Origin: Fodinicurvata sp. EGI_FJ10296
Lineage (GTDB): Bacteria > Pseudomonadota > Alphaproteobacteria > DSM-16000 > Inquilinaceae
Reading direction: 5' to 3'
Assembly (NCBI RefSeq): GCF_040712075.1
Contig: NZ_JBFCVL010000004.1
Coordinates: 124,001-188,000 of the forward strand
DNA: 64,000 bases
The notes beneath the pieces were generated by a model that saw only the letters and a program-made list of their open reading frames with translations, was not told the origin of the DNA and did no database searches. Made by a program: the position numbers and the translations under genes. This document shows positions 6,605-28,703 of this stretch, one piece after another (within the stretch, counting starts at the first letter, position 1; each line of letters begins with the position of its first letter).

Positions 6605-6862
6605 CTATTCTTTCGATGGATCTTTCTTTCCTGACTCTCGCCGCGCACACTCGTGCTTGTCCATCTTTTCCAACCCCTCGATGATGTCGTCGGTTTTCGT
6701 TTTCTCGTCGGGAACGGCGTGGCGCTGATTGTGCACATTGTGCTGATCGTCGCCCTGCAGGCTGTTTTCACCCATTTTCCTGCCGGCGAGATCAGTCTCC
6801 GTTACATTGCGCGGATTATTTCCATCGCGGGCATTCCCGCCCTTTTTCCCATTTTCGGCCAC
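6605..6862 (-). CDS. Small hydrophilic protein of unknown function
   Basis: An 85-residue, very hydrophilic protein rich in Lys, Asp, Asn and Gly, with a conserved-looking core MGENSLQGDDQHNVHNQRHAVPD (two halves, residues about 30-52) and a Lys/Asp/Glu-rich end. It looks intrinsically disordered, like small alphaproteobacterial stress proteins, but no named family was recognised. GTG at 6862 is chosen because a GAAGGGAGA site lies about 6 bases upstream; an in-frame GTG at 6889 has none. It follows the CinA-like gene by 81 bases and may share its promoter. Confidence 0.65.
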   Translation of the reverse strand: MAENGKKGGNARDGNNPRNVTETDLAGRKMGENSLQGDDQHNVHNQRHAVPDEKTKTDDIIEGLEKMDKHECARRESGKKDPSKE

Positions 6863-6943
6863 TGTCGATCTCCCTTCATTGATTGGCACAACGCTTCGTG
6901 CCAGGCGATTGTCAGTACGGGGACCGGCGTCCCCGCAACTCGG

Positions 6944-7474: not shown

Positions 7475-7500
7475 AGCTGGTCCCTCCGTGGCAGTCGCCA

Positions 7501-7526
7501 AACATGGAACTACCGCCGCATGTTCC
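7501..7526 (-). promoter_or_regulatory. EcfG-like promoter (GGAAC-N17-TGTT)
   Basis: Minus strand perfect GGAAC, 17-base spacer, TGTT (three of four). It ends 27 bases upstream of the CinA-like start at 7474 and is back-to-back with the perfect element at 7535-7560. Confidence 0.5.
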
Positions 7527-7534
7527 GTTATTCA

Positions 7535-7560
7535 GGAACAGTATGTGGGCGGCGGACGTT
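7535..7560 (+). promoter_or_regulatory. EcfG-type promoter, perfect match
   Basis: Plus strand GGAAC at 7535-7539, 17-base spacer, CGTT at 7557-7560, a perfect match to the general-stress EcfG consensus, 53 bases before the ATG of the 262-residue membrane protein. Confidence 0.75.
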
Positions 7561-7613
7561 CAGGAGCGGGCTGGCGGGCACCGCTTCAGGCCGGGCAACG
7601 AGGAGCATTCACT

Positions 7614-8402
7614 ATGGATCTGTGGGCATTGCTCATCGAATACAGCGATGCGATCAACACCATCGTCAACTTTCTGATACTGGTCGTCTGGGCATCGTAT
7701 TTTCAGCTCTTGCTGAGCACCCACTGGCAACAGCGGCAGGCCAAAATCCTGATCAATCGCGGTGCCGGTCATGAGATCACCGCCAATTGCCTGATTTCCA
7801 ACATGAGCGCAGAGCCGATCTATGTGGATTCCATCGTTGTCATCATCGATCCCGACGGACAATCGATACAAAGATCGCTGACCGACTTGAATTCTCTGTC
7901 GAAGAAGCCAAGTACCGACGCGCGTTCATCCTGGTTCCAGGGACCGGTCGCCAAAGGTGACTACATCAATATCGGCACCTTCGAATCGCTGCTCCAACAA
8001 GCTCTTCTCGGCGATTCCGGCGTTGCTACCGACGAACCGGACAGCCGCAACCTCCCTTCCGGCACGCCGCCGCGAGACCAGTCCCCGGACAAGAGCCAGG
8101 AACATACCGTACCGACGGATGCTCCGCTTTCAAGCAGGCAACAGCCAGACCAGCGGCCCGAGAGCGCCACACCTGGCCGTCAGCCGAAGGAAACGACCAC
8201 GTCGGTGGATCAGATCAGCGCGTTCGACATCATGGTGGTCGCAATCTATGGGCCAGAGAAATACCCGGTTGCCGCAAAACGCTGCTTCCGTTTCAATCCC
8301 GATAAAACCAGAGGCAACCGCTGGCGGGCGTCGGACAGCCGCCAGATCAGCAAACGGTCAGAACGCCGCCGCCTGAAGCAGGTCATGAACGAAATTACAT
8401 GA
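7614..8402 (+). CDS. Hypothetical membrane-anchored protein
   Basis: A 262-residue protein with an N-terminal transmembrane helix (NTIVNFLILVVWASYFQLLL, about residues 13-35), a folded stretch to about residue 125, a Ser/Pro/Gln-rich disordered linker (about 130-200) and a C-terminal piece with FDIMVVAIYGPEKYPVA and a basic tail. The soluble part should be cytosolic or periplasmic depending on insertion; neither can be settled. ATG at 7614 follows GAGGAG. No family was recognised. A perfect EcfG-type promoter lies just upstream, so it is probably stress-induced. Confidence 0.65.
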   Translation: MDLWALLIEYSDAINTIVNFLILVVWASYFQLLLSTHWQQRQAKILINRGAGHEITANCLISNMSAEPIYVDSIVVIIDPDGQSIQRSLTDLNSLSKKPSTDARSSWFQGPVAKGDYINIGTFESLLQQALLGDSGVATDEPDSRNLPSGTPPRDQSPDKSQEHTVPTDAPLSSRQQPDQRPESATPGRQPKETTTSVDQISAFDIMVVAIYGPEKYPVAAKRCFRFNPDKTRGNRWRASDSRQISKRSERRRLKQVMNEIT

Positions 8403-10134: not shown

Positions 10135-11151
10135 CTACTCGGCTGCCATACCGGCGCGAGCCTGAGATTTGCTGACCGGCGTTGGCTGAACGACGCTGGT
10201 GGCGATCGTCGGCTGCGTCTGCCCGGCGAGCCATTGAACGGTTCTGCCCAACCCGTCGGGGAATGCGATCTTCGGCTCCCAGCCCAGCAGCTCGCGGGCA
10301 CGGGAAATGTCCGGGCAGCGACGCCGCGGATCGTCGGTCGGGAGCGGCCGGTGCACGATGCGCGAACGCCCCGGTACGGCGCGCAGAACCTCCGCCACCA
10401 TATCGTTGATCGAAACCTCATCCGGGTTGCCCAGATTGATCGGGCGATCGATCGGCGTCCCGCATTCCATCAGCGCCATCAGTCCTGCCACCAGATCGTC
10501 GATATAGCAGAATGACCGCGTCTGCGTACCGTCGCCGTAGACGGTGATATCATGCCCCGCAAGGGCCTGACAGACGGCGTTGGTGACGACACGCCCGTCA
10601 TCGGGCGACATGAAGGGACCATAGGTATTGAAGATCCGCGCGATGCGCACGTCGACGCCGCGTTGGCGATAGTCGCAGCACAGCGTTTCAGCAGCACGCT
10701 TGCCTTCGTCGTAGCAGGCGCGCGGGCCGTTGGGATTGACGTTGCCGAAATAGCCCTCGGGCTGCGGATGGGTCAGCGGATCGCCATAGACCTCGCTGGT
10801 CGACGCCATGAGAAAGCGCGCGCCGCAGGCTTCGGCCAGCGCCAGAAGGTTGTGGGTGCCATTGACACAGGTCGGCAAGGTGTCGACGGGGTCGGATTGA
10901 TAGTGAACGGGCGACGCCGCGCAGGCGAGATTATAGATCTTGTTGAAAGAACCGAGATCGCCCGGCGGATCGTTGATGTCGCCATGACGAAAGACAAGGC
11001 GACCGCTGGTGGTCAGGGCATCCAGATTGACCGTCCGCCCCGTGCGCAGGTTATCCAGCACGACCACGTCATAACCCTGGTCCAGCAGGGCGGCGGTAAG
11101 GTTGGTTCCTATGAACCCGGCCCCACCGGCAACGAGAATGCGCTCGGTCAT
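10135..11151 (-). CDS. UDP-glucuronate decarboxylase-like NAD-dependent epimerase/dehydratase
   Basis: A 338-residue extended SDR. VAGGAGFIGTNL binds NAD; NLACAASPVHYQSDP (about residue 74), MASTSEVYGDP and CYDEGKRAAETL (YxxxK) closely match UDP-xylose synthase, which turns UDP-glucuronate into UDP-xylose. ARIFNTYGP is also diagnostic. It would supply an activated pentose to the glycosyltransferases of the operon. It is the last of nine minus-strand genes and overlaps the methyltransferase by 4 bases. The C-terminal 25 residues look disordered. Related 4-keto-pentose or epimerase chemistry cannot be excluded. Confidence 0.8.
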   Translation of the reverse strand: MTERILVAGGAGFIGTNLTAALLDQGYDVVVLDNLRTGRTVNLDALTTSGRLVFRHGDINDPPGDLGSFNKIYNLACAASPVHYQSDPVDTLPTCVNGTHNLLALAEACGARFLMASTSEVYGDPLTHPQPEGYFGNVNPNGPRACYDEGKRAAETLCCDYRQRGVDVRIARIFNTYGPFMSPDDGRVVTNAVCQALAGHDITVYGDGTQTRSFCYIDDLVAGLMALMECGTPIDRPINLGNPDEVSINDMVAEVLRAVPGRSRIVHRPLPTDDPRRRCPDISRARELLGWEPKIAFPDGLGRTVQWLAGQTQPTIATSVVQPTPVSKSQARAGMAAE

Positions 11152-11954
11152 TCATTGTCTCCCTGACAAACGCGGCTGCTGACGGCAATGCGGCTTGCCT
11201 GGCTATGGGCGTCGTCGATGAACGCGGGGGCGGTCCGGTCGCTGCGGTCGCTGCGGTCGCAGACATAGATTTCGTGGCCCGGCTGCCCACGCACGGCAAA
11301 TCCGGCGCTGCGCAGCATGGCGAGGACGCAGGCATGGTTCGGCACCCACCAGTTTGTAGGATCGCCGCAGAACGTCGACTCGATGAAGGCCATGGCCGGC
11401 CATGAAGAAGTCTGCAGCTTGTGCCGCGTCTGGAAATCGACATCGCTGCGGCTGTCCTCCGACACCGCTTCGTCGCCCCGTGTCAGCGTCTGTACCACCA
11501 ACAGGCCCGGATCGATTTCAGCGATCAGGTCGAGCGCCAGCAGCGGGTGCCGGAGGTGATAAAGAACACCCAAAAACAGCACGACGTCGAAATGTCCGGG
11601 CAAGGCCGTGAGCTCGTAGACCGACGCTTTCTGAAAAGAGACCCGGTCGGCGCCGGCCTTGTCGGCCGCCCATCGCGCCTGGGCCAGATAATGGTCGTCC
11701 ATGTCGATACCGACCACCTCCGCCCCGCGCCCGGCCATCGCAAGGCTGTAGAAGCCGGCATTGCAGCCGATATCCAGCACCCGCTTGCCACTGAGGTCGG
11801 ACGGCAGGTGGTCGGCGATTTCCAGCCATTTGAAGTTGGGAAAATCGCCCAGCGGATGGTCGGGCGCGGTGCAAACGCCGCCGGGGAGATGCAGATTGTG
11901 AAACCACGGCGCCAGGTCAGCGATTTCGTCGAGAATGGTTGCACCCCCGCTCAT
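11148..11954 (-). CDS. SAM-dependent methyltransferase of the glycan operon
   Basis: A 268-residue class I methyltransferase: VLDIGCNAGFYSLAMAGRG (about residue 57) with VVGIDMDDHYL, then FDVVLFLGVLYHLRHP. The Trp-rich stretch NWWVPNHACVLAMLRSAGF near residue 205 resembles tRNA CmoB-like and sugar methyltransferases. From memory it matches a family (TIGR04290) that travels with B12-radical-SAM glycan loci; this needs checking. It probably methylates a sugar or the aglycone. Four-base overlaps on both sides show tight coupling. A run of Asp-Arg-Ser triplets near residue 234 is a small local repeat. Confidence 0.75.
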   Translation of the reverse strand: MSGGATILDEIADLAPWFHNLHLPGGVCTAPDHPLGDFPNFKWLEIADHLPSDLSGKRVLDIGCNAGFYSLAMAGRGAEVVGIDMDDHYLAQARWAADKAGADRVSFQKASVYELTALPGHFDVVLFLGVLYHLRHPLLALDLIAEIDPGLLVVQTLTRGDEAVSEDSRSDVDFQTRHKLQTSSWPAMAFIESTFCGDPTNWWVPNHACVLAMLRSAGFAVRGQPGHEIYVCDRSDRSDRTAPAFIDDAHSQASRIAVSSRVCQGDNE

Positions 11955-13045
11955 GAGGCGCGCGCCCGCGCTTGCGATCCCGTCCGCGCCATTCGGCCAT
12001 GCGCGGCTTCAATCAGAGCGTCCTCGAATGCGACGGCCCGGGCAGTGGCGGTGTGATCGCGCAGAACCCGCAGATACCCCGCCCTGGCGATCCTTTCCCT
12101 GCTGGCGTCGGCCATTGCCAGACACGCCACGACATCGTCGGCGCTTCCGGCGCACAGAACCTCTGCTCCCGGCTCCAGCACCTGCGCCAACCCCGGCCAG
12201 ACATCGGTGATCACCGGCCGGGCACATCCGGCCGCTTCGAATATCCGGACGCTGGGGCTGTATCCGGCCTTCACCATATCGGCACGGGTGACATTGAGGG
12301 CGAAGACCAGAGACGCATAGAAAGCCGCGTGTTCGCTCGGCGGAAGATGCGCGATACGCTCGACATTGCCGGGCCAGGCGATGTCATCCGGATACAGGGC
12401 GCCGGCGACGATGAAGCGCCGATCCGGCATCCGGCGCGCGGGCTCGATCAGCAATTCCTCCAACGCTGGCTGCCGGCTGGGATCGTAGGTGCCCAGATAG
12501 CCGAGCGCGTAGCGGCGCGGTACTTCGATAGGCGCATAGATCCGTGTATCGACGCTGCAGGACAGCGACCGCACCATCCGTGCACCGAACTCCCGCTTCA
12601 GCCGCGTCATGATCGGGCCGCCGCTGAAAGACAGATAGACATCGAAGGCCGGCACGGTCCGCGGCTTGAGATAGGCCGCCCCACCCGCCGCCAGCCCGGC
12701 GACGGTCACCGGCGTATCGATGTCGTAATACGCCAGCGTTACCGATGTCCGGTTCGACAGCATCGCCACCAGAGCCTCGGCATCCTCGACATAGGAACCG
12801 ATGATAACGGCGTCGGGCGCTTCGTCGTCGATTTCCACGATATCGGGCAGCCGATCGTACAGGCGCAGCGTACAGAAATCGGGATCGGGCAGATCGCGAT
12901 GGGCGCGATACCATGGAACATCCCGTTCATAGAACACGATGTCGTGGCCACGATCGGCCAGGGCGCGCAGCAGGCTTCGATAGGTCGTCGCGTGGCCGTT
13001 TCCCCAGGAAGACGACAGGCTCAGACCGAAAAACACCAGTTTCAT
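11951..13045 (-). CDS. CgeB-like glycosyltransferase 1
   Basis: A 364-residue GT-B fold transferase. The N-terminus FFGLSLSSSWGNGHATTYR matches the CgeB/YkvP-type transferases, and the C-terminal half carries NVTRADMVKAGYSPSVRIFEAAGCARPVITD, the nucleotide-sugar binding region. Donor and acceptor are unknown. It is the first of three paralogues in a row, whose shared N-terminal layout and ATGA overlaps point to tandem duplication and possibly successive sugar additions. No membrane segment is present. Confidence 0.8.
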   Translation of the reverse strand: MKLVFFGLSLSSSWGNGHATTYRSLLRALADRGHDIVFYERDVPWYRAHRDLPDPDFCTLRLYDRLPDIVEIDDEAPDAVIIGSYVEDAEALVAMLSNRTSVTLAYYDIDTPVTVAGLAAGGAAYLKPRTVPAFDVYLSFSGGPIMTRLKREFGARMVRSLSCSVDTRIYAPIEVPRRYALGYLGTYDPSRQPALEELLIEPARRMPDRRFIVAGALYPDDIAWPGNVERIAHLPPSEHAAFYASLVFALNVTRADMVKAGYSPSVRIFEAAGCARPVITDVWPGLAQVLEPGAEVLCAGSADDVVACLAMADASRERIARAGYLRVLRDHTATARAVAFEDALIEAAHGRMARTGSQARARAS

Positions 13046-14151
13046 GCTGTCGTTCCCGTCGGATTGAGAAAGGTTCGGGCGGATTGCAGGGCCGCGAGCC
13101 TGGCAGTCAGAATGGCGGCCCGATCGGCATAGGTATGATCAGCCAGGATGCGCTGGCGCCCGGCCCGACCGATTTCGGCCGCCCGTTCCGGCGTCAGCGC
13201 GCTCAGCAGGTGGGCGAGATCGACCCCGTCGCGAACGGTCAGGATTTCCCGGCCCGGCTCGACGAACATCTCCAGCCCCTGCCATTCGTCGGTGATCAGA
13301 CAGGCACCGGCGCCGAGGGCTTCGAACACTCGTGTCGCCGGCGAAAAGCCGACCGCGGCCATTGCGTCGCGTGCAATGTTGACGACAGCCAGCGCCGAGG
13401 CGTTGAACGCGTTGTGATCGGCGGTGCGGACATGGCCGATATGGCGCACATTTTTCGGCAGCCGATCGGGCTCCCAACCGGACCCGGCGAGCAGGAACCG
13501 CGCGTCGGGCAGTCTCCGCGCCGCGTCGAAGAATATCGCTTCGACCCGCGCTTCACGATCGGGCAGTCGATTGCCCAGAAAGGACGCATCAGCGGCGAAA
13601 CGGGGTTCCGGCGCGACCGGGAAATGCGTCGCGGGGTCGAGTGCGTTATAGATCGGCACGCAGTCGCGCGCGCCGAGCGCCCGGTATTCCGCGACGACGG
13701 CATTTCCACCGCCATAGGTCAGAACGGCGTCGAGCGCCGGCAGCGCCTGCCTCAGCGCTGGGGCCGATGCCGATTTCAGCGCGGCAAGCGTGGCCGGGGC
13801 ATCGACATCCCAGAAGATTCTGACCGTTTCCGGCAATGCCTTTTCCAGCATGCCGGTCAGCAACAGGTCGTCATGAACGCCGACGCCACTTGCCTTGATC
13901 ATGACGTCGGCCCCGGCACCGTCGTCCAGAACCGAAGATACGCCTTCGGGGGTGGCGGGATAGACCACCACCCGCGCCCAGTCGGGGGCGTCGATATCGC
14001 GGTGCGACTGCCGGTCGAAGGCATCGGGTTCGTAAAAGGTCACCCGGTAGCCCCGGTCGTGCAGCGCCCGGATAATGCCGCGATAATAAGTTGCGGCACC
14101 ATTCCAGTAGGACGACAGCAAGCTCGATCCGTAAAAGGCGATCGTGGTCAT
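13042..14151 (-). CDS. CgeB-like glycosyltransferase 2
   Basis: A 369-residue paralogue of the adjacent transferases. It begins IAFYGSSLLSSYWNGAATYY, and has VLTYGGGNAVVAEYRALGA in the middle and the donor-site segment AVGFSPATRVFEALGAGACL near residue 265. The fold and family are clear, the sugar specificity is not. ATGA overlaps on both sides show one transcript. Divergence from its neighbours is high at residue level, so the duplication is old. Confidence 0.8.
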   Translation of the reverse strand: MTTIAFYGSSLLSSYWNGAATYYRGIIRALHDRGYRVTFYEPDAFDRQSHRDIDAPDWARVVVYPATPEGVSSVLDDGAGADVMIKASGVGVHDDLLLTGMLEKALPETVRIFWDVDAPATLAALKSASAPALRQALPALDAVLTYGGGNAVVAEYRALGARDCVPIYNALDPATHFPVAPEPRFAADASFLGNRLPDREARVEAIFFDAARRLPDARFLLAGSGWEPDRLPKNVRHIGHVRTADHNAFNASALAVVNIARDAMAAVGFSPATRVFEALGAGACLITDEWQGLEMFVEPGREILTVRDGVDLAHLLSALTPERAAEIGRAGRQRILADHTYADRAAILTARLAALQSARTFLNPTGTTA

Positions 14152-15263
14152 CCGACAACCCTTTCGGCGGCGCTTTGCGTCATTTCCTGAACCACATCCA
14201 TCAGCTCTGCCGCGCGATGGTCGCAGGTGTGCCGGGTGCGGATGGTCTCCAGGCCATTCGTGGCAAGAGCCTCGCGCAGGCCCGGCTGGTGGCGGAGATC
14301 ACGCATATGCCGCCTCATCTCGTCTCCCGTCCGGGCGACCAGGTGATCGTCGCCGGGCCGGAACAGCCCTTCGGTATCGGGCCACCACGCGCTGATCAGA
14401 GGAATGCCGCAGGCCAGTGCTTCAAACATGCGGATCGTCGGGATCCCCGGCAGGGCTTCGACATAGAACCGGCGCGGCACATGGACAGTCATCAGGAACC
14501 GGGCGAACAGGTTCGGCACATCGGCGTTGGCGACCCATCCACCATAACTGGCGCCGATATTGTTCAGCCGCCGCACCGCCGCTTCGGGATACCGGACTCC
14601 GTGGACCATCAGCGCCAGTTCCTCCGCGGCGACCGGGCTGAAGAGAAATGTCTCCAACTCCTCGGTGCGTTCCTCGTCGCCCCAGTTTCCGATCCAGACG
14701 ACATCGCCCGACGGCGCCTCTTTGCCGGAACACCGGCGAGGAAAAAAGTGGCTGACATCCGCCGCCTCGTGCCAGACGAACACCCGCGCCCCCCATTTCC
14801 GGTAGACGGCGGCCAGGCTTTCGCCGAACGCAAGAATGGCGTCGAAGCCTTCCAGCACCGCGCGGTCGACACTGTCCGGTTCGCTGACCGCCCTGTGGTG
14901 GGTATCGTGGTACAGCAGCAGAAATCGCCCGCCCTCGCGGCGCAGGCGCACCAGCCGCGCGATCACCGCCGGGTCGGTCCATTCGTGCACGATCACCAGA
15001 TCGGCGGCATCGGCAAACAGCACCGGGTCGGCGCCATCGTCGTAGGATACCGGCTCCAGATCAGGATAGGCACGGCGAAAGGGCAACAGCCCCTCATCGC
15101 CCTGGTCGTGGCGCAGATTGGTCAGACTCCAACTCCCCGCCGGTTCCAGCACGTCGACACAATGGCCGCTGCGGCGCAGCGCCCGCACCATGCCGCGCAG
15201 GAAATGCGCGTTGCCATGGTTCCAGCAGGACCGCAGGGACTGGGTGAAATAGACGATCTTCAT
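14148..15263 (-). CDS. CgeB-like glycosyltransferase 3
   Basis: A 371-residue transferase, third paralogue. It starts KIVYFTQSLRSCWNHGNAHF, with IVHEWTDPAVIARLVRLR and FLLLYHDTHHRAVSEPDS in the N-terminal half and TIRMFEALACGIPLISAWWPD as the donor-binding motif near residue 275. The ATG at 15263 is chosen because it overlaps the stop of the upstream GT4 gene by 4 bases; the frame stays open to 15521 but that is antisense-like filler inside the neighbour. The acceptor is unknown. Confidence 0.8.
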   Translation of the reverse strand: MKIVYFTQSLRSCWNHGNAHFLRGMVRALRRSGHCVDVLEPAGSWSLTNLRHDQGDEGLLPFRRAYPDLEPVSYDDGADPVLFADAADLVIVHEWTDPAVIARLVRLRREGGRFLLLYHDTHHRAVSEPDSVDRAVLEGFDAILAFGESLAAVYRKWGARVFVWHEAADVSHFFPRRCSGKEAPSGDVVWIGNWGDEERTEELETFLFSPVAAEELALMVHGVRYPEAAVRRLNNIGASYGGWVANADVPNLFARFLMTVHVPRRFYVEALPGIPTIRMFEALACGIPLISAWWPDTEGLFRPGDDHLVARTGDEMRRHMRDLRHQPGLREALATNGLETIRTRHTCDHRAAELMDVVQEMTQSAAERVVG

Positions 15264-16411
15264 GCGGGCGCCCCCACGCTTGCCAGACGACAGGCCGCCA
15301 CCCGGCCGTAAAGCGCAGCCGTCTCGGTGGCCATGGCGTCGATCCCAAAGCCACCGGCCCGCCTTGCAGCCGCGTCGGCCATTGCCAACCGCGCCGCACC
15401 ATCCGCCCGCAACCGCTCGATTTCGCGGGCGAAGCCGTACGCGTCCGAGGGCTCGACGAAGACCGCCGCCCCGTCCCATAGCTCGCGAAATGTCGGAATA
15501 TCGGACAGCACCAGCGCGCATCGGGCCTGCGCCGCCTCCAGCACCGCCAGCCCGAACGGCTCGTAAATGGCCGCCGAAACGAAAATACCAGCCTCGTCCA
15601 ACCGATCCTGCATCGCCGCCCGGTCCAGTTCACCCACAAGCCGCAAATGGTGAAAAGCAGCCGCCACAGCGCCGCGACGCGGCTCGCACACCGGCCCGGC
15701 CGCTTCGATCGGCATCGCCAACTGCGCCGCGGCCCGGTCGAGCGTTGCGACATTCTTGCCCTGATCCCACAGCCGGCCCGCCGTCAGCACCAGTCCCCCG
15801 GCTCCTGCCTGACGCCCCCCACCGTTCGAAAGGTGACGTCCATTGGGAATGACTTCGATATCGAGGCCGTGCCCGTAATGGGGTTTGATCGCGGCGGCAA
15901 ACGCATGGCTGGGGACGATGACGGCATCGGCCCTCGCCAAACCCCGCCTGACAATTGCCAACTGCCACGCCAGATCCGGCGGCAGATCAATGCCGGGAAA
16001 AACCGCCGACCACCAACTGGCCACGCACGAGTGGAGCCCAACGACAAGCGGCGTGCGCGACGCAGCCTCCTCCCGCGCCAGCGTGGCAGCAAATCCGGGG
16101 CTGTTCAGGTGAATGACGTCGGGGTCGAAAGCACGGCACTGGTTGAAGAACGCCTCGCCCGCATCGACCAGCTCACGCTCATCGCGTGCCGCCCAGTCCA
16201 GCGGCAGATCAGCGACTACCGGCGTGACACCGCCGATCGCATCCACCGACCGGCGCTGGGAGACCGAAGCCGACGGCCCAACGATCATCAGCACGACTTC
16301 GATGCCCCGGTCAGCAAGCGCGCGCGCCAGATCCAGGGCATAAGTCCAGACGCCGCCGACGGTGTCGGTGGAGATAACGATCCGGCGCGGCTCGCTCAGC
16401 ATCCGGGGCAT
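15260..16411 (-). CDS. GT4 family glycosyltransferase
   Basis: A 383-residue GT4-type transferase: STDTVGGVWTYALDLARAL near the N-terminus (donor loop), HLNSPGFAATL, VPSHAFAAAI, and the C-terminal AIYEPFGLAVLEAAQARCA EX7E segment near residue 300. GT4 enzymes use retaining NDP-sugar chemistry. ATG at 16411 has GGAGG 4 bases upstream; ATG at 16402 is an alternative. It overlaps the radical SAM gene by 16 bases. The open frame extends to 17449, which is only the shadow of the radical SAM gene. Confidence 0.8.
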   Translation of the reverse strand: MPRMLSEPRRIVISTDTVGGVWTYALDLARALADRGIEVVLMIVGPSASVSQRRSVDAIGGVTPVVADLPLDWAARDERELVDAGEAFFNQCRAFDPDVIHLNSPGFAATLAREEAASRTPLVVGLHSCVASWWSAVFPGIDLPPDLAWQLAIVRRGLARADAVIVPSHAFAAAIKPHYGHGLDIEVIPNGRHLSNGGGRQAGAGGLVLTAGRLWDQGKNVATLDRAAAQLAMPIEAAGPVCEPRRGAVAAAFHHLRLVGELDRAAMQDRLDEAGIFVSAAIYEPFGLAVLEAAQARCALVLSDIPTFRELWDGAAVFVEPSDAYGFAREIERLRADGAARLAMADAAARRAGGFGIDAMATETAALYGRVAACRLASVGAPA

Positions 16412-17694
16412 GGGGCCTCCAATTGCGCCAGAGATTTCGGATCCTGCTCCTGAATGTCGCTGAACACGCCGAATTCGCGCAGATAGTGATCGTGGGCGCG
16501 TTCCCAGGCGCAATCGTCGGGGGCGCCCCAGCGCTTGCGATAATCCGGCGAGCTGGGATAGGCGAACAGCGGCACAGGGTCGTTCGCCCAGACATCGTGA
16601 TCCCGAAGCCGGTCGCGCCAACAGGCCACGGTCGCCGGGTCGTCCGCGACCGTCGCGATCAGATTGGCCTGAACAAACGGAATGTGCCGGCGCGCCTCGA
16701 TCAGAAGATCGGCCATTTCCTCGGTGGAAAGCCGGCATCTCTTGTCCAGACTGTCCCGGCCCTCGGGCGTCAGGCTTTCCAGCCCGGCTTCGACCGAAAC
16801 GCAGCCCGCTTTGCCCAGCAGCGCGATCATTTCCGGCCTCCACAGATCGATGCGCGTCTGCACGCCGAAGCGGACGTCCCGCTCGGTCAGCGCCGCAAGA
16901 AGATCCTGGCGCGGCAGAAATATCTCGTCGATGAAGTACAGATAGGTCACGCCCTGAGCGATAAGTGCGTCGATCTCGTCCAGCAGGATCGACAGGTCGC
17001 GGCGGCGGTATTTGTCGCGATAGTCGATCTTGGCGCAGAACGAGCAATTGAAGGGACACCCGCGCGACGCCTCGACCTCGGCCCCCGGTCCGTCCGGCGC
17101 GGCATCGAACCGGTGGTGATGATGCCAGTGATCGGCCAGCCAGCGATCCGGCCATTTCAGCGCCGGATGAGACACGAACGGCGAAGCCGCATTGCCGCCG
17201 TTCAGGCGCAGCCTCCGGTCGCCCCCGAGCCAGGCGGTACCCGGAACGGCGCCGGGGTTGCCGCCGTGATTGGCCAGACCGGCCACCACCTCTTCGCATT
17301 CGCCGCGCACGACAATGTCGCAGCCGAGTTTCCTCAGCGTCGGTTCCGGCGTCACCGATCCGTGCGGACCGACGGCGACGGTGAGACCGCCACGGCCGCC
17401 AAGCAGCCCGAGGAACTGCCCCGGCACGCGCAGCTCCGGCGGCGCGCACCGCCAGAACAGATAGGTCGGCGCGGTTGCGACAACGGTCATGTCGGGCTGG
17501 AAAGCCGCCACCGCCTCGGCGAGCGCTGAATTGTCACCGCCCGACAACTGGCCGTCGAAGATTTCGGCCGTGTGACCGCCTTGCTCGGACAAGGCCCTGG
17601 AGTATCCCAGTTCCAACGGCAGATGCGCCGCGCGACAGCCGAAATAAATGCTGTTGTCGTAACGCCAGGCGGGATTGACCAGAGCGATGCGCAT
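16396..17694 (-). CDS. B12-binding domain radical SAM protein
   Basis: A 432-residue enzyme. Residues 1-150 form a cobalamin-binding-like Rossmann domain (MRIALVNPAWRYD; TVVATAPTYLFW). The radical SAM motif RGCPFNCSFCAK near residue 203 supplies the CX3CX2C cluster ligands, followed by a TIM-barrel (YLYFIDEIFLP, SVEAGLESLTPEGRD). Such enzymes methylate or rearrange unactivated carbons. From memory it resembles TIGR04295, a family tied to glycan-type loci; this is to be checked. In this operon it may modify a sugar or lipid. It follows the fusion gene with a 4-base gap. Confidence 0.85.
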   Translation of the reverse strand: MRIALVNPAWRYDNSIYFGCRAAHLPLELGYSRALSEQGGHTAEIFDGQLSGGDNSALAEAVAAFQPDMTVVATAPTYLFWRCAPPELRVPGQFLGLLGGRGGLTVAVGPHGSVTPEPTLRKLGCDIVVRGECEEVVAGLANHGGNPGAVPGTAWLGGDRRLRLNGGNAASPFVSHPALKWPDRWLADHWHHHHRFDAAPDGPGAEVEASRGCPFNCSFCAKIDYRDKYRRRDLSILLDEIDALIAQGVTYLYFIDEIFLPRQDLLAALTERDVRFGVQTRIDLWRPEMIALLGKAGCVSVEAGLESLTPEGRDSLDKRCRLSTEEMADLLIEARRHIPFVQANLIATVADDPATVACWRDRLRDHDVWANDPVPLFAYPSSPDYRKRWGAPDDCAWERAHDHYLREFGVFSDIQEQDPKSLAQLEAPCPGC

Positions 17695-17698
17695 CGTC

Positions 17699-19741
17699 TC
17701 ACCTCGCGGACGGAAAGGTGGGGGGAATCGGGGAGCCGGCCCTGCAATTCGGCATCGGCCCGACGTCGTCGGCGCGCTCGACCCGCAGCCAATTGACCAG
17801 CCGTCGAACGCCGCTCTTCCATTCTATGGCCGGCACCCATCCCAGCGCCGCGTTCAGTCGGCGCGTATCGGAAACGAAGTATTTCTGGTCGCCCTGGCGC
17901 CACGGCTCGGTGCGGGTGTCGACCGGCCCGTCGATCAGATGCTCCAGACAGGCAACCAGTTCGGCCAGGCTAACGGCATTGGCCGGTCCGCCGCCCAGAT
18001 TGAACGCCCGGCCGGAAACGGCGCCGATGTTGTCGAAGACACGCCGATAGGCGCGGACGGCGTCGTCGACATGAAGGATGTCGCGGACCTGAAAGCCGTC
18101 GCCGAAGATGGTCACGGGCCGTCCGGCGAGGGCATTGATTGCGAAATGAGCGACCCACCCCTGATCCTCGGTGCCAAACTGACGTTCGCCATACACACAG
18201 CTCATGCGCAGCACGGCCGTCGGCAACCCGAAGCTACGGCTGTAATCCAGAACATATTGATCAGCAGCGCCCTTGGAGCATCCATACGGCGTGACCAGAC
18301 TGAGGCTGCGATCCTCGCCGACGCCGGTGGCGTTCAGTGCGTCATCCGCCGGGCGATACGCCCGGTCGAGCAGCACCAGCGGCACCTCGGCCAGATCGCC
18401 GTAGACCTTGTTGGTGCTGGCAAAAACGAAGGGCATCGGATTGGGGCGTATGGCTTCCAGCAGGTTCAGCGTGCCGCACAGGTTCGAGCGGAAATCGTCC
18501 ATCGGATCGGCCAGGCTCGACGTCACGGCCACCTGCGCCGCAAGATGGATCACGCCCGATGCATCGCGGGTGACGTCGTCGACGGCGATCCGGTCGCGCA
18601 CGTCGCCAATGGTCGCGCTGATCCGGGCGGGGTGGCGGCGTCTCAGCCAGGCCAGGTTCTGTTCCACCCCGACCCGCATCAGTCCGTCGAAGACGAGAAC
18701 ATCGCGGCCATCGGCGGCCAGGCTGTCGGCCAGATTGCACCCGATGAACCCGGCCCCGCCAGTGACCAGCACCGGCTTCCGGCCGACGATCGCCGGTCCC
18801 GGACGCGCCAGATCCAGGGTCTGCTCGATACAGACCTGCCCGCCATGCGCCAGCAGGCGCGCCGTCAGTTTCGGATGGCCGCTACTGTCGAACAGCCCCA
18901 AATGATAGTGCCGCTCGTCGAAGTGATAGCCTTCCTGGCTGGCGACATCGATGGGCAGATCCTGAAGCGCGTACCAATAGACGCGGTCGGCCGGCGCGGC
19001 CGTGATCTCAAGGAACCGGCGCGCCTGTTCGGCCTCGTCGCGGCGCCAGGTCGAATACCCGGCCTCGGTGATCCAGATTTCAGCATTGTCGGTGAATGGT
19101 TCGACCGCCTCACGCGTTTCCGCAATCAGACTGCCCCACCCCGCCCAGGTTCCTTCCTCGCTCTCCCAGGTGCCGGGAAACCCGTGCACACCGATCACGT
19201 CGATGTACTGAAGCAGTCCGCGCTCGCCCATATGGCGCAGAAGGTTGGCGTCGCTCGGGCACAGCCCGCCCAGCACCGCCCGTTTGCCGCGCTGGCGCAC
19301 CCAGTTGGCGGCGGCGCCAGCCATCATGCAGAACTTTCCCCAGTCGGGGTCCAGCCGCCAATCCCAATCCAGCAGATTGTTGGGCTCGTTCCACAGTTCC
19401 ACGGCTTCGAAATGGCGTCCGTAGCGGTCGATCACGCTATCGATGAAGTCGGCGAACGCCCTCAGATCGGTCGGCGGCCCGTTCGTGCGCCCGTTCTCGG
19501 CGATCGAGGGTGGTGTGTAATGAATGCAGGGAAGCAGATCGGTTTCGGCCGCAAGTTTCGGCAGCAGCCAGTCATACCAGTCCCGGCCACCCTCGACGTG
19601 AAACTCCGCCCATGACAGATGCGTTCGCAGGCGATCGACGCCGATCATGCGCATCTGTTCCAGCGCGGCTTCAGCATGGGAATGGCACCCGGGCCGGAAC
19701 CATTCGACGACGCCGGGAGCGCATTTCCCGTTTGCCGTCAT
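17699..19741 (-). CDS. Glycoside hydrolase-epimerase fusion protein
   Basis: A 680-residue two-domain protein. Residues 1-300 are a TIM-barrel glycosidase of the cellulase/GH39-like type with the acid-base pair in ELWNEPNN (Glu119) and the likely nucleophile in WITEAGYSTW (Glu226). Residues 322-655 are an extended SDR with VTGGAGFIGCNL (326-337), FASTNKVYGD and YGCSK (Tyr486, Lys490), closest to CDP-paratose/UDP-glucose epimerases. Joining a hydrolase and an epimerase in one chain is unusual. No signal peptide is present, so it is cytosolic. ATGA overlap with the upstream epimerase shows coupling. Confidence 0.85.
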   Translation of the reverse strand: MTANGKCAPGVVEWFRPGCHSHAEAALEQMRMIGVDRLRTHLSWAEFHVEGGRDWYDWLLPKLAAETDLLPCIHYTPPSIAENGRTNGPPTDLRAFADFIDSVIDRYGRHFEAVELWNEPNNLLDWDWRLDPDWGKFCMMAGAAANWVRQRGKRAVLGGLCPSDANLLRHMGERGLLQYIDVIGVHGFPGTWESEEGTWAGWGSLIAETREAVEPFTDNAEIWITEAGYSTWRRDEAEQARRFLEITAAPADRVYWYALQDLPIDVASQEGYHFDERHYHLGLFDSSGHPKLTARLLAHGGQVCIEQTLDLARPGPAIVGRKPVLVTGGAGFIGCNLADSLAADGRDVLVFDGLMRVGVEQNLAWLRRRHPARISATIGDVRDRIAVDDVTRDASGVIHLAAQVAVTSSLADPMDDFRSNLCGTLNLLEAIRPNPMPFVFASTNKVYGDLAEVPLVLLDRAYRPADDALNATGVGEDRSLSLVTPYGCSKGAADQYVLDYSRSFGLPTAVLRMSCVYGERQFGTEDQGWVAHFAINALAGRPVTIFGDGFQVRDILHVDDAVRAYRRVFDNIGAVSGRAFNLGGGPANAVSLAELVACLEHLIDGPVDTRTEPWRQGDQKYFVSDTRRLNAALGWVPAIEWKSGVRRLVNWLRVERADDVGPMPNCRAGSPIPPTFPSAR

Positions 19742-20958
19742 GTAACCAGTCCCCGCGATTCCAGTTCGGCGCTGGCATGGGCGATGTTGTCGACCGCGCC
19801 CTCGGTCACGACCCAGTCGGCCAGTTCAGCCAAGCCGACGTCCAGATCGTATCGCGGCTCGTACTGCAGGATCCGCCTTGCATGGTCGATGTCGGCAAAG
19901 CAGTGCCGGATATCCCCCGCACGGCGCTTGCCGGCAATTACGGGTTTCAGGTCCTCGCGCGCCATTACGGCGGCAAATCGCTGGGCCAGCTGCCCGATGG
20001 AAATCGGCCGTCCACTGCCGATATTGATGACCGCCCCCGCTGCCCTGGGTGCGGTCAGTGCATCAGCGAAGGCCCTGGCGACATCTTCGACATGCACGAA
20101 ATCGCGCAGTTGCTGGCCATCCTCATAGATCATTGGCGGCCGGCCGTTCAGAAGGCGGGCGGCGAATACCGCCAGCACACCGGTATACGGATTGGACAGA
20201 GCCTGCCCCGGCCCGTAGACGTTGAAGAGACGCAATGCGACGGCCTCGGTGCCATAGGCCGGCGGCACGATCATCGCCATCTGCTCTTGCGCGTACTTGT
20301 TCAGCGCATAGATCGACGACAGCTTCGGCTCCTTTGATTCCGGCGTCGCGACCGGCGTCAGCGCCCCGCCATCGGCGCCGACCGGATCCCAGCTTGCCAG
20401 CCCGGAACTGCCGTTCGCACCCCGGGGGCGGGATGCGTCCTGAACATCCGATCCGGCGGCATCGCGATAAAGCCCCTCGCCATAAACACTCATTGATGAC
20501 GCCACGACGATGCGCTTGATCGGCAGATCGATCATCTGTTGAAGCAGGACGGCGGTGCCGAACTCGTTGACGCCGACATAGCGTTCGATTTCGTACATGC
20601 TCTGCCCGACACCGACCTCGGCGGCCAGATGGACGACGCTGTCGACGCCATCAAGTGCGCGGCGAACAGCCTCGCGGTCGCGGATGTCACCGTCGATGAC
20701 TTCACAATCGGCAACGCTGCCATTGGGCAGGGCTGTCGTCGCCGCATCCGTTCCGCACCCCGGAACATGGCCCTTGCCGGCCGGGTCGGTGTGGACCTGA
20801 TCGTTGAAGTTATCGAACACGCGAACCCGCGCGCCGCGCCGAAGCAGTTCTGCCACGACATGCCGGCCAATGAACCCGGCACCACCAGTCACAAGAACGA
20901 AGTCCGTCCTGTTTTGCCCCCCGGGCTGAGGCTGAGAATGCGGAGCCGAGCGTGACAT
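19738..20958 (-). CDS. NAD-dependent epimerase/dehydratase (UDP-glucose 4-epimerase-like)
   Basis: A 406-residue extended SDR, first gene of the operon. It has LVTGGAGFIGRHVVAELL near residue 22, VASSMSVYGEG, and YALNKYAQEQM (YxxxK); GRPPMIYEDGQQLRDFVHVEDVA is typical of the epimerase C-terminal half. An insertion of about 45 residues between the Ser and Tyr motifs carries Gly/Ser/Pro-rich sequence. The start at 20958 is set by AAGGGAAGG about 9 bases upstream and by homology beginning soon after; the frame runs on to 21135. The exact sugar nucleotide is unknown. Confidence 0.8.
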   Translation of the reverse strand: MSRSAPHSQPQPGGQNRTDFVLVTGGAGFIGRHVVAELLRRGARVRVFDNFNDQVHTDPAGKGHVPGCGTDAATTALPNGSVADCEVIDGDIRDREAVRRALDGVDSVVHLAAEVGVGQSMYEIERYVGVNEFGTAVLLQQMIDLPIKRIVVASSMSVYGEGLYRDAAGSDVQDASRPRGANGSSGLASWDPVGADGGALTPVATPESKEPKLSSIYALNKYAQEQMAMIVPPAYGTEAVALRLFNVYGPGQALSNPYTGVLAVFAARLLNGRPPMIYEDGQQLRDFVHVEDVARAFADALTAPRAAGAVINIGSGRPISIGQLAQRFAAVMAREDLKPVIAGKRRAGDIRHCFADIDHARRILQYEPRYDLDVGLAELADWVVTEGAVDNIAHASAELESRGLVT

Positions 20959-21315
20959 ATGACGACACCTTCCCTTGTTTCGTCCTACGCTCCGGAACCC
21001 CGTGCTCATGCTGATGTTCCATGGCACCGGCCACATACGCGCAATTTCCGTCGCCGAGGTGGAGTACGGTCGAAACGGGGGCGATTTTCGGCAATCACTA
21101 TTGCCCGGACACACAGCGATATCCTGTGCCGTCACGCAGAGTCGGGGATGGGAACGGGATTCAGTTGCCGATCGGGGCCGCCATGGCTGCCAGTATCGAC
21201 AGTGGGCAACGCGTCAGGTCGTATGGCTCTGCGCCCGCCAACTCAGAAGGATGGGAAGGAGCGGCGCTCAGGACGGGGCGATGGGGTCGGAGCGTTCTTC
21301 CCACCCTGGTGGCCA
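20959..21315. other. Intergenic, no gene seen
   Basis: These 357 bases separate the glycan operon from the response regulator gene, both on the minus strand. Apart from the promoter-like element at 20996-21020 no coding frame, repeat or terminator with a T tract was recognised. Open frames here overlap flanking genes and have no ribosome sites. Confidence 0.6.
20996..21020 (-). promoter_or_regulatory. EcfG-like promoter of the glycan operon (GGAAC-N16-GGTT)
   Basis: Minus strand perfect GGAAC (21016-21020), 16-base spacer, GGTT (20996-20999). It ends 38 bases before the first gene of the nine-gene operon, the same arrangement as at 4073-4098. The rest of the interval to 21315 shows no gene. 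Confidence 0.55.
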
Positions 21316-22002
21316 TCATTGTTCGGCCGCACATTTTTCGCCCGGACAGATCGCCGCGACATAACCGATTCTTACCGCTTGCAGCGCCGCATGCGTCCGG
21401 TTTCTGGCATCGAGCTTGCGGCAAATATTCTTGACGTGAAGCTTCACGGTCACTTCCTCGACGCCCAGACAGCGCGCAATCTCCTTGTTCGACATGCCCA
21501 GCAGAAGATGCCGGACGACGTCGTCCTCTTTGCGCGTCAGTGTGGAAACCGGCCGGCCCTTGGCGGAAACAGGTGAAGAATCGACTGGATACGCAGCCGC
21601 AAGTGCGCGGATCGCGGCCGCGTTGGCCGGTTCGCGGTTGCTGAAGGCTCGAACCACCTCAAGCAAGACTCCGCCGTCAATGGTTTTGGGCAGGAAACCG
21701 ACGGCGCCGACATCCATTGCGGCCTGTACATCGGCCGGCTTTGCCAGCCCCGACATTACGGCGACCGGCGATTGCGTGGCCTTCAGAACGCGCTCCAGGC
21801 CATGCAGCCCGTCCATGCCCGGCATCCAGAGATCGAGAATGATCAGCGAGAACGGCTCGGCGTGCACTGCGGCGATCGTCGACATGGCGTCGTCAACCGA
21901 AGCCGCCGTGACGACGCTCGCATCGCTGCACTGCCGCTCGATATGCGTCTTCAGCGCGTCCCGCACGAGGGCGTGATCATCGGCAATCAGCAATTTCAGC
22001 AT
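21316..22002 (-). CDS. NarL/FixJ family response regulator
   Basis: A 228-residue regulator. The receiver domain (1-120) holds IADDHALVRD, the phospho-acceptor Asp57 in LIILDLWMPGMDG and Lys in FLPKT; the C-terminal LuxR-type helix-turn-helix is at about 155-215 (LTRKEDDVVRHLLLGMSNKEIARCLGVEEVTVKLHVKNICRKL, quoted here as a region of key residues T, NKEIA, VTVK, HV). A stress-regulated target set is unknown. A histidine kinase lies 1.7 kb away, divergent, with an MFS gene between; whether they form a pair cannot be told. The ATG at 22002 opens a divergent AT-rich region. Confidence 0.9.
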   Translation of the reverse strand: MLKLLIADDHALVRDALKTHIERQCSDASVVTAASVDDAMSTIAAVHAEPFSLIILDLWMPGMDGLHGLERVLKATQSPVAVMSGLAKPADVQAAMDVGAVGFLPKTIDGGVLLEVVRAFSNREPANAAAIRALAAAYPVDSSPVSAKGRPVSTLTRKEDDVVRHLLLGMSNKEIARCLGVEEVTVKLHVKNICRKLDARNRTHAALQAVRIGYVAAICPGEKCAAEQ

Positions 22003-22308
22003 CTGCAGGAGCGCCCGGGGGTAATGGAGCTACGGTAACGATATTTCAACGCACACGACAAATCGATCGCGACACTACGAAAGTATATTAGCAAACTCCC
22101 TAATCGATTGTCATGCCATACATTCGATGTCGAATTTGTTTTTTTCTCGGCAGACCACGCAACGGCCGGCGGCCGCCTCTCCGCAGGTCCACCTGCTTAA
22201 TGCGCATAGCAGCGCATAGGTTTTGAGCGTTGTGCCGATTCTGCCGGCGCGCGATCATGCGTGCGATAACCTCTTGCGTGCTCCGCCCATTTTCGTCTGT
22301 GCAGACCA
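22003..22308. other. AT-rich divergent intergenic region
   Basis: These 306 bases between the response regulator and the MFS gene are clearly lower in GC than the surroundings (for example 22060-22145). A weak open frame on the minus strand (22100-22315) has no family resemblance and was not called. The region must carry promoters for both divergent genes, but none was identified. Confidence 0.5.
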
Positions 22309-23565
22309 GTGTCAAATTACTTCTCGTTCATTAAGAAAAATATCCGTCTGCTTTCTTTCGGATTTACGCTCACCTGTTTTTCTGCCTTCGGCCAGACGTT
22401 TTTCATTGCGCTTTTTGGCGCCGAGTTCAGAAATGAATTCGATTTAAGCAACAGTCAATTCGGTGGCGTGTATTCGATCGCAACGCTGTCAAGTGCGCTG
22501 ACCCTCATGGGAATCGGACGCCTCATCGACCGAACCAGCCATACACGATTTGCAGCGTTCGTCTGCTGCGGCCTTGCCACTGCCTGCGTGGTTGCCTCCA
22601 GCGCCTCAAACGTCCTGATGCTGGGGCTGGCGCTATATGGCCTGCGGCTGTTCGGACAGGGGCTGATGACCCATACCGCCATGACGACCATGGCGCGATG
22701 CTATGACCGCGATCGCGGAAAATCGATCAGTCTTGCCGGCACCGGTGTTCCGGCCGGCGAGGCCGTTCTGCCGTTCCTTGTCGTATCGGCTGCGGCGATC
22801 CTGGATTGGCGGACTGCATGGCTGGCGTTTGCCGGTGTGCTGGTCATTTTCGTCCTTCCCATCGTCCTCTTTACCGGTTCAGGGAAGCCGAACGAAAGCG
22901 AAAGCGACACCGACGGCCGAAGCCGGGATGGCGCCATCCAGCGGAGGGGATTCACCGCCAGTCGCGATTTTACCACCGCCGAGGTGCTCCGCGACCTCAG
23001 GTTTTTGCTGCTGTTGCCCGTGTTTCTGGCAACGCCGTTCATTACCACCGGCATCATGTTCCACCAGGTCGTGCTGGTCGAGGAAAAGGGCTGGTCGCTG
23101 GCCTGGTATGCCGCCACCTTCAGCGGTTTCGCCGCGGCGGCGACCGTCTCCGCCATCTATCTCGGCACTCTGGTCGATCGCATCGGCACCGTCAGCATTC
23201 TGCCGTTCTATCTGCTTGGCATCGCCGCAGGATGCGTGGTGCTGGCAACGGTGGATCATCCTGCGGCCGCGCTTTTGTTCATGCTGCTGGCCGGAGTGTC
23301 GGTCGGTGGGCAAATGCTGGTCACATCGGCGCTATGGCCCGAACTCTATGGCCGAAAACATATCGGCGCGATCCGGTCCATGACCACCGCCATGATGATC
23401 GTTGCAACCGCCGGAAGCCCATTCGCGTTCGGCTGGCTGATCGACGGCGCGGTCACCATGTCCACACTCGCAGGTTACTGTGCCCTCTACATCCTTGTCG
23501 CTTCCGCCGTTGCAGTCGCGGCGGTGAAGCGTCACAGAAATGCCGAGCTGCAACACGCACTATAA
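22309..23565 (+). CDS. MFS transporter
   Basis: A 418-residue major facilitator protein with about 12 membrane helices and a central hydrophilic loop (about residues 190-220). The GIGRLIDRTSH segment between helices 2 and 3 fits the conserved MFS loop. The substrate is unknown; the pattern resembles multidrug or organic-acid carriers. The GTG start at 22309 has no good ribosome site. The first 150 bases are lower in GC than the rest, hinting that the 5' end or the divergent region has a different history. The histidine kinase gene follows after 112 bases. Confidence 0.85.
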   Translation: MSNYFSFIKKNIRLLSFGFTLTCFSAFGQTFFIALFGAEFRNEFDLSNSQFGGVYSIATLSSALTLMGIGRLIDRTSHTRFAAFVCCGLATACVVASSASNVLMLGLALYGLRLFGQGLMTHTAMTTMARCYDRDRGKSISLAGTGVPAGEAVLPFLVVSAAAILDWRTAWLAFAGVLVIFVLPIVLFTGSGKPNESESDTDGRSRDGAIQRRGFTASRDFTTAEVLRDLRFLLLLPVFLATPFITTGIMFHQVVLVEEKGWSLAWYAATFSGFAAAATVSAIYLGTLVDRIGTVSILPFYLLGIAAGCVVLATVDHPAAALLFMLLAGVSVGGQMLVTSALWPELYGRKHIGAIRSMTTAMMIVATAGSPFAFGWLIDGAVTMSTLAGYCALYILVASAVAVAAVKRHRNAELQHAL

Positions 23566-23677
23566 GGAGCATACTTATAACACTATTCGCTTTATAGTTG
23601 ACTTCGGTAGCCAGAACGTCCGACAAGTGTCGTTCATCGGAATCGCGGACAGCAGCGGCAGGATCGGCTTCACATTC

Positions 23678-28628: not shown

Positions 28629-28703
28629 CGTCTTCTTCCTTGTGCAATCGGTCGAGCAGCAATCTTCGGACGGATGACCCGGCCCGCGTGCGTGCAGGAC
28701 CGG

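Follow-up and report, generated by a model that had tools for sequence, protein, structure and literature searches.

Organization of the operon

The 64,000-nucleotide stretch of DNA analysed here (the window) comes from Fodinicurvata sp. EGI_FJ10296 (contig NZ_JBFCVL010000004.1, positions 124,001 to 188,000). It carries a single block of nine open reading frames (ORFs), all on the minus strand from 20958 down to 10135, that encode three short-chain dehydrogenases/reductases (SDRs), one of them fused to a hydrolase domain, four glycosyltransferases (GTs), a methyltransferase and a radical SAM (rSAM) protein with a B12-binding domain (Table 1). The block is the compact variant of a real and widespread alphaproteobacterial gene cassette. 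Six of its eight junctions are 4-base overlaps, one is a 7-base overlap (16 bases if the GT4 gene starts at 16411) and one is a 4-base gap, as tight as a first-pass annotation, made by a model from the letters alone, had described them. Across the nine genes the GC content is 0.72–0.78 at third codon positions versus 0.46–0.53 at second positions. The same annotation had drawn the operon from 10135 to 21020; the nine genes stand, but what begins at 21020 is a GGAAC-N17-GTT motif and not a gene. The likely start codon of SDR1 is the ATG at 20958, with in-frame starts also at 21009 and further upstream.

Table 1. Genes and features of the operon in window coordinates.
Feature	Description	Position	Strand	Basis
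g1 (SDR1)	Extended SDR, NDP-sugar epimerase/dehydratase type, 406 aa	19738..20958	-	PF01370, 168.8 bits (query from 20961)
g2	GH39/PslG-like hydrolase domain fused to SDR, 680 aa	17699..19741	-
g2, residues 1–322	TIM-barrel hydrolase domain, unpermuted	18776..19741	-	AF2 model, Foldseek, alignment
g2, residues 323–680 (SDR2)	CDP-tyvelose-2-epimerase-like	17699..18775	-	phmmer
g3	B12-binding-domain rSAM protein, TIGR04295, CxxxCxxC at C213/C217/C220	16396..17694	-
g4	GT4 glycosyltransferase	15260..16402 (or start 16411)	-	PF13439, PF13579, PF13692, PF00534
g5 (GTa)	PF13524 glycosyltransferase	14148..15263	-
g6 (GTb)	PF13524 glycosyltransferase	13042..14151	-
g7 (GTc)	PF13524 glycosyltransferase	11951..13045	-	35.5% identical to GTb
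g8	Class I methyltransferase, TIGR04290	11148..11954	-	Nearest solved chain CmoB
g9 (SDR3)	UDP-glucuronate decarboxylase (UDP-xylose synthase) homologue	10135..11151	-	phmmer
Promoter motif	EcfG-type, GGAAC-N17-GTT	20996..21020	-	37 bases before the ATG at 20958

To the earlier inventory of enzymes (a fusion protein, a GT4 enzyme, a methyltransferase and a B12-rSAM protein) three assignments were added. SDR3 matched UDP-glucuronic acid decarboxylase 1 (4gll_A) at 1.8e-90 over residues 3–314, the next other enzyme following at 4.9e-35 (phmmer), and has its YxxxK motif at Y147–K151; it is a homologue of UDP-glucuronate decarboxylase, predicted to supply UDP-xylose. SDR2, the epimerase half of the fusion, has CDP-tyvelose 2-epimerase as its closest match (9rl0_E, 1.4e-79; 1orr_A, 1.6e-74; next chain 3e-36; phmmer) and would be of the C2-epimerase type. 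The hydrolase half, on which no Pfam hydrolase family was detected at 0.001, is PslG-like by its predicted fold: PslG (5bx9/4zn2), of glycoside hydrolase family 39 (GH39), was the best Foldseek match of its AF2 model (mean pLDDT 79.4; E 1.2e-13, TMq 0.67, 21% identity), and 5jvk was also matched. The putative catalytic glutamates, the E of WNEP and the E of WITE, are invariant in five of five fused rows. SDR1 carries a YALNK motif, its profile matches split into two stretches, and its nearest solved chains are NAD-dependent epimerases, including UDP-glucose 4-epimerase and MoeE5. All three of the transferases that had been called CgeB-like contain PF13524 and are 25–36% identical in pairs.

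The methyltransferase scored 323.6 bits against TIGR04290 (meth_Rta_06860; curated cut-off 300), its nearest solved chain being a tRNA (mo5U34) methyltransferase, and g3 scored 666.7 bits against TIGR04295 (B12_rSAM_oligo; cut-off 400), with residues 2–426 on profile positions 1–422. The first-pass annotation had thus named both families correctly. PF04055 (51.2 bits versus a cut-off of 29.5) and the CxxxCxxC motif, whose three cysteines are invariant in 16 of 16 aligned rows, place g3 among the rSAM proteins, with the B12-binding domain PF02310 at 22.1 bits, below the gathering score of 32.1. The only solved enzymes matched at E ≤1e-5 are four distinct sequences, TsrM, AprD4, 9ccb_A and TokK, at 35–51 bits. 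With relatives so distant and the B12 domain below threshold, the chemistry of g3 cannot be read from homology.

Conservation and distribution of the cassette

A scan of one genome per species gave 470 stretches with rSAM relatives at E ≤1e-3, of which the best 80 were kept. These 80 loci span Mesorhizobium, Methylobacterium, Methylorubrum, Azospirillum, Sphingomonas, Inquilinus, Acetobacteraceae, Caulobacteraceae and others; eight were set aside as lying on contigs too short, leaving 72 to be judged. The order SDR1-SDR2-rSAM-GT4-GTa-GTb-GTc on one strand was found in 65, and in three more with the fused hydrolase domain between SDR1 and SDR2 (68/72 in total). The core order thus recurs across genera, and because of this conserved synteny the operon called in the first-pass annotation is more than a chance arrangement. 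The deviating loci are one without GT4 and three from Methylobacterium (L077, L087 and L107), which lack GTb and GTc in the stretch examined and may make a shorter product. A locus outside the 80 (L164, genome G173) is arranged as SDR1-GTa-GTc-decarboxylase-hydrolase-SDR2-rSAM-GT4-GTb-methyltransferase, and in Tistrella (L110) a topoisomerase IB gene (22969–24045) lies inside the cassette between decarboxylase and methyltransferase.

Within flanks of up to 10 kb, so that the counts are lower bounds, the 80 loci include inositol-3-phosphate synthase (MIPS) in at least 53 (31 of them Mesorhizobium), the decarboxylase in at least 61 and the methyltransferase in at least 38. The fullest form seen, fifteen genes on plasmid p195_1 of Bradyrhizobium sp. 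195, begins with MIPS, a histidine phosphatase, a fourth GT, a nucleotidyltransferase, the methyltransferase, a separate hydrolase and a phosphopentomutase, and continues with SDR1, SDR2, rSAM, GT4, GTa–c and the decarboxylase. This strain has a TIGR04295 gene on each of two plasmids (L111 and NZ_CP082163.1).

The two marker families co-occur: an even draw from the class (289 genomes) contained 12 with TIGR04295 and 13 with TIGR04290, 12 of them shared (Fisher 2e-20); in the thirteenth TIGR04290 genome (G152, 83% complete) the contig starts in GTa and the cassette is cut (L172). All ten TIGR04295 genomes of a 398-genome draw from the phylum belong to the window's class, in a draw for which the number of other classes is not shown. 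No mention of TIGR04295, TIGR04290, 'rhizo-twelve' or the family short names was found in the literature searched, and searches on MIPS with rSAM and GTs, on stress regulons and on permuted hydrolases found no description of the cassette.

A dehydrogenase pair in place of the rSAM gene

The separate hydrolase also pointed to cassettes on Sinorhizobium meliloti pSymB (strains R11 and 2011, the core of the latter at about 242,480 to 258,000), Rhizobium etli plasmids (NXC12 and CFN 42 p42b) and a Roseomonas mucosa plasmid. They hold SDR1, SDR2, GT4, GTa–c, the decarboxylase and the methyltransferase, and no TIGR04295 match occurs within the stretches read (both statements resting on annotation alone for CFN 42). 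Adjoining these cassettes are a zinc-binding dehydrogenase and a Gfo/Idh/MocA oxidoreductase, which are 71–74% and 63–65% identical, respectively, among four loci. The zinc dehydrogenase scored best in NCBIfam against the scyllo-inosose 3-dehydrogenase IolM (89.7 of 450 bits), which makes it a weak hint of an inosose enzyme because the mycothiol-dependent formaldehyde dehydrogenase is practically tied at 88.5. For the oxidoreductase, the lead of the inositol 2-dehydrogenase IolG (96.4 of 355 bits, far below cut-off; next 65.9) appears clearer.

In a plasmid collection, TIGR04295-like proteins were found in nine records (Azospirillum 5, Bradyrhizobium 2, Geminicoccaceae 1, Tistrella 1) while 135 records had the cassette oxidoreductase (Sinorhizobium 66, Rhizobium 48, Roseomonas 9, Paracoccus 5, Ensifer 3 and four single genera). 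The two sets share no genus name; the neighbourhood was read in five of these records, and the comparison covers the plasmids, not the chromosomes, of those genera. Among 26 genomes with TIGR04295 or TIGR04290, no cassette oxidoreductase above 39% identity was found (E ≤1e-20). Since the rhizobial and Roseomonas cassettes were read without the rSAM gene, this gene looks like a replaceable module and not the centre of the system. Most simply, the rSAM protein and the dehydrogenase pair would serve the same or alternative modifications of a ring; it is also possible that the two forms yield two different products.

Circular permutation of the hydrolase

SDR2 is unfused in most relatives. A complete separate hydrolase gene of 295–317 residues lies beside the methyltransferase gene in 24 loci and is named beta-xylosidase in annotated records; in Pfam the separate copies match PF11790 alone, below the gathering score. 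All 24 align to the hydrolase domain of the window as two exchanged segments: window residues ~111–298 correspond to residues 2–191 (up to 201 in some) of the separate copies (E 2e-23 to 6e-33), and window residues ~10–108 to residues 198–294 (E 9e-6 to 3e-12). The separate copies start at the WNEP strand, a few residues past the start codon. The pattern used to select these copies itself contains their start; a freer search, of any ORF above 200 residues with WNEP (a copy without WNEP would escape it), found no separate unpermuted one. A profile of the permuted form matched end to end (positions 1 to 296–303 of 307) in 18 of 25 TIGR04295 genomes, only partly in six fused-form genomes, and not at all in G086.

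The predicted strand order runs from 1 to 8 in the fused form and from 4 to 8 then 1 to 3 in the separate form. The model of the latter (mean pLDDT 77.1) is a complete barrel that resembles generic TIM barrels with Z up to 13.7 (VIA-align), and none of the 50 Foldseek matches listed for it is a GH39 entry, the best being a designed barrel at E 2e-4. Homology of the permuted form rests on the sequence alignment, and the missing Foldseek match is no sign of a different fold. As read from the alignments, the fused and separate hydrolases are related by circular permutation.

All fused copies that were read (the window, L069, L082, L083, L105, L108, L110 and R. etli) are unpermuted. On a tree of SDR2 built from 60 of 93 rows, 12 of them fused, the fused state is scattered with eight changes, and a single clade of fused forms was rejected; S. 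meliloti, with a separate hydrolase, and R. etli, with a fused one, form a sister pair supported at 100/88. Because of this scatter, the fused and permuted forms have probably been exchanged repeatedly. Both kinds occur in one genome (G219; L170 and L171): a fused, unpermuted hydrolase truncated where its contig begins, and a separate, permuted one with MIPS.

A general stress promoter motif upstream of the cassette

The motif upstream of SDR1 in the window fits the published EcfG type of the general stress response, given as GGAAC-N17-20-GTT for Sphingomonas melonis (PMC6599016), GAAC-N16,17-C/GGTT for Methylobacterium extorquens (PMC4814048) and GGAAC-N16-CGTT for R. etli (PMC3892343). In 54 of 80 loci (L028–L112 and the window, counting loci with 200 nt of upstream sequence) GGAAC-N16-18-GTT occurs in the 200 nt before SDR1, versus 172 of 8000 random windows from the same loci (2.2%) and 102 of 16,000 shuffled upstream regions. 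At least one locus has it in 15 of 28 genus-level groups, which are not independent of each other. Each of the three transcription units of S. meliloti 2011 has the motif in front of it, though the same 34 kb contain 15 matches; in R. etli NXC12 it stands before both units, and the Roseomonas stretch has none. The stress link put forward in the first-pass annotation gains from this enrichment, and the cassette would be under general stress control.

PMC6599016 records EcfG-dependent glycosyltransferases in S. melonis. Term searches of the main texts of PMC3616915, PMC6180224, PMC8877191, PMC3892343, PMC3188799 and PMC11387232 found no cassette genes. Searching the literature for S. meliloti and R. 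etli locus tags gave no usable match, a silence that means little with tags that were guessed (some from p42a, the cassette being on p42b); one tag, SMb20231, is an ABC sugar-binding protein by name.

Inositol synthesis and the form of the cassette

Among 25 TIGR04295 genomes, MIPS is present in 15 of 18 with the permuted hydrolase versus none of six with the fused form only (Fisher 0.0006), G219, with both forms and MIPS, being counted among the 18 and G086, with MIPS and neither form detected, being left out. The fused hydrolase and MIPS as alternatives are therefore suggestive only, as the SDR2 tree gives just 3–4 independent pairs for the contrast, which cannot reach significance. The window's genome (99.4% complete) has neither TIGR03450 at 1e-60 nor PF01658 at 0.001. 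It does encode a true iolG (422.8 bits against a cut-off of 355) and could thus process inositol from the environment.

The idea of inositol rests on the MIPS, the phosphatase and the dehydrogenase pair of other versions of the cassette. Inositol as core or acceptor is plausible for the larger, MIPS-carrying form and likely only there; given a genome without MIPS, the window's version calls for another acceptor or for inositol brought in from outside, and an inositol acceptor is a weakened candidate for it. Membership in a mycothiol-like pathway was rejected, as the cut-offs for MshA and Ino1 were missed, and is kept as an analogy for the larger form.

Export genes and flanking genes

Profile scans found no polymerase, flippase or exporter among the nine genes, as noted in the first-pass annotation, and no flippase, polymerase or ABC exporter among the flanking genes scanned, which do include an MFS transporter and TRAP parts; the rest of the genome lies outside this search. 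Annotation tables, which are incomplete, name no polysaccharide export or polymerase gene around seven relatives (L108–L112, L177 and L179). Hydropathy averaged over 19 residues peaks at 1.68, in g9, and no other gene exceeds 1.50.

An OtsA-like trehalose-6-phosphate synthase lies 3.6 kb from the operon, at 542.7 bits to TIGR02400 just under the cut-off of 564.85, and adjoins a BON-domain (OsmY-like) protein (the pair at 4257–6530, on the other strand than the operon). Immediately upstream of the nine genes (21316–26350) are a NarL-type response regulator, a major facilitator superfamily (MFS) transporter and a 936-aa histidine kinase, possibly for local regulation or transport. Further off, parts of a TRAP transporter (DctM, DctP), an aldehyde dehydrogenase and a beta-eliminating lyase (27183–32774) probably form a separate catabolic cluster. 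On the other side of the operon lie two adjacent ORFs of 217 and 373 aa (6653–8402), with no NCBIfam match at 1e-6 or Pfam match at 1e-5, and a bacterial archaeo-eukaryotic release factor family 3 protein (1296–2450).

Discussion

We lean towards the view that the window holds the compact form of a stress-controlled alphaproteobacterial cassette that builds a small, soluble, cytosolic glycoside based on UDP-xylose. This view is based on the homology of SDR3 to the decarboxylase and of SDR2 to tyvelose 2-epimerase, the four glycosyltransferases with GT4-type or PF13524 domains, the conserved gene order, the enrichment of the EcfG motif and the lack of any polysaccharide export or polymerase gene in the block. 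SDR3 would convert UDP-glucuronate to UDP-xylose, and SDR1 and SDR2 would convert NDP-sugars, SDR2 as a C2-epimerase type. The GT4 enzyme may start the glycoside and the three PF13524 enzymes extend it, the B12-rSAM enzyme would modify a sugar or cyclitol ring once (in the rhizobial versions the zinc dehydrogenase and Gfo/Idh/MocA pair may do this instead), the methyltransferase would cap the glycoside, and the GH39-like domain may trim or transglycosylate it. We infer these enzymatic steps, the small size and cellular place of the product and its protective role, and the interpretation of the first-pass annotation is, overall, partly supported.

Several observations weigh against this view. 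The exact motif is absent from 13 of the 28 genus-level groups, including all loci of Azospirillum (0/4) and Methylorubrum (0/5) and the single loci of Tistrella, Bradyrhizobium, Methylocystis, Alsobacter, Beijerinckiaceae and Caulobacteraceae (0/1 each); Methylobacterium has it in 3 of 9, and Mesorhizobium accounts for 37 of the 54 motif loci. As to inositol in this form of the cassette, MIPS was found in none of the fused-form-only genomes (0/6, the window's included), and three genomes of the genus Tistrella have no iolG match at 1e-20 and no MIPS. The GT4 enzyme scores 25.2 bits against MshA (TIGR03449; cut-off 462.5). The MFS transporter near the operon (22309–23565, on the opposite strand) leaves room for an exported product, as do the genome's other loci, which were not searched for exporters.

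A surface polysaccharide locus, or one for a lipopolysaccharide or exopolysaccharide side chain with its flippase, polymerase or exporter elsewhere in the genome, is unlikely but deserves some weight. Such loci typically combine sugar-nucleotide SDRs with several GTs and a methyltransferase. The S. meliloti R11 cassette has a polysaccharide pyruvyl transferase gene beside it, and the nearest structure to the hydrolase is PslG, which belongs to an exopolysaccharide locus; the negative searches for export and polymerase genes in the block and, by incomplete annotation tables, around the seven relatives speak against it. We would give about the same small weight to an extension of the favoured view, in which the cassettes make undescribed, stress-induced cyclitol/xylose oligosaccharides with a role like that of trehalose or mycothiol, the rSAM protein equals the dehydrogenase pair in ring epimerisation or oxidation, and the permuted forms of the hydrolase have been exchanged repeatedly.

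Lipids are frequent acceptors of soluble glycosyltransferases like these, and the relatives of the B12-rSAM protein include the hopanoid enzyme HpnR (44.2 bits, cut-off 650), so that a membrane glycolipid built at the inner membrane face, for example a glycosylated hopanoid, ceramide or diacylglycerol, can be envisaged. We consider this improbable: the block has no lipid-acting enzyme, and 53 of 80 relatives (31 of the 53 from Mesorhizobium) carry MIPS within the flanks examined instead. Least probable, in our judgement, is a secreted specialised metabolite of the aminoglycoside or aminocyclitol kind. Such a product is hinted at by AprD4 of apramycin biosynthesis among the rSAM relatives (40.6 bits to 6fd2_B) and by a dehydrogenase pair nearest to inosose and inositol dehydrogenases; there is no aminotransferase, exporter or resistance gene among the nine, and a wide, order-conserved distribution with a general-stress motif would be unlike most antibiotic clusters.

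The comparison turns an unnamed operon into a directly testable question, namely what it is that alphaproteobacteria of soil and plants produce under the control of their general stress response. Knock-outs are routine in several hosts of the cassette: Mesorhizobium, Methylobacterium and Azospirillum, and also S. meliloti (pSymB) and R. etli (p42b), where it comes without the rSAM gene. Its parts are of known kinds; the permuted hydrolase, the rSAM exchange and the stress promoter set it above an ordinary sugar cluster. The permuted hydrolase pair offers a clean natural case of how a barrel enzyme survives circular permutation, and the exchange of rSAM gene and dehydrogenases gives a specific, falsifiable hint to the chemistry of an uncharacterised family of B12-domain rSAM proteins.

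Comparison with known systems

In NCBIfam, TIGR04295 and TIGR04290 ('hypoth_equivalog' models) carry the label 'rhizo-twelve system'. Both marker families are over cut-off here; the models themselves are of single proteins of unknown function and do not extend to the permuted hydrolase, the dehydrogenase pair or the promoter motif. The larger form of the cassette resembles the start of actinobacterial mycothiol synthesis (Ino1, MshA and a phosphatase): it has an Ino1 near TIGR03450 (512.9 of 638 bits) and a GT4 enzyme, and its histidine phosphatase comes closest to the MSMEG_4193 family (121 of 203.85). It differs in that all of these scores are below cut-off, and the window's form has no Ino1 at all; no MshB, MshC or MshD is named in the cassettes read. 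A precedent for the exchange of the rSAM gene is 2-deoxystreptamine biosynthesis, in which the same oxidation is carried out in different pathways by the radical SAM enzyme BtrN or by a zinc dehydrogenase. BtrN is not of the B12-binding type, and equivalence in the cassette would follow from the gene exchange alone.

For the hydrolase, the best fold match is PslG of Pseudomonas aeruginosa, and the putative catalytic glutamates are in place; the window's domain differs from PslG in being fused to an SDR and in lacking a hydrophobic N-terminus, and its separate form is permuted. The literature searched on natural permutation in glycoside hydrolases describes GH70/GH13 cases and none from the cassette, which is no proof of novelty. 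GH70 and GH13 are likewise related by a natural circular permutation of the catalytic barrel. They presumably belong to a different fold clan from the cassette hydrolase, and they differ from it in a further respect: here, both hydrolase forms serve the same gene cassette.

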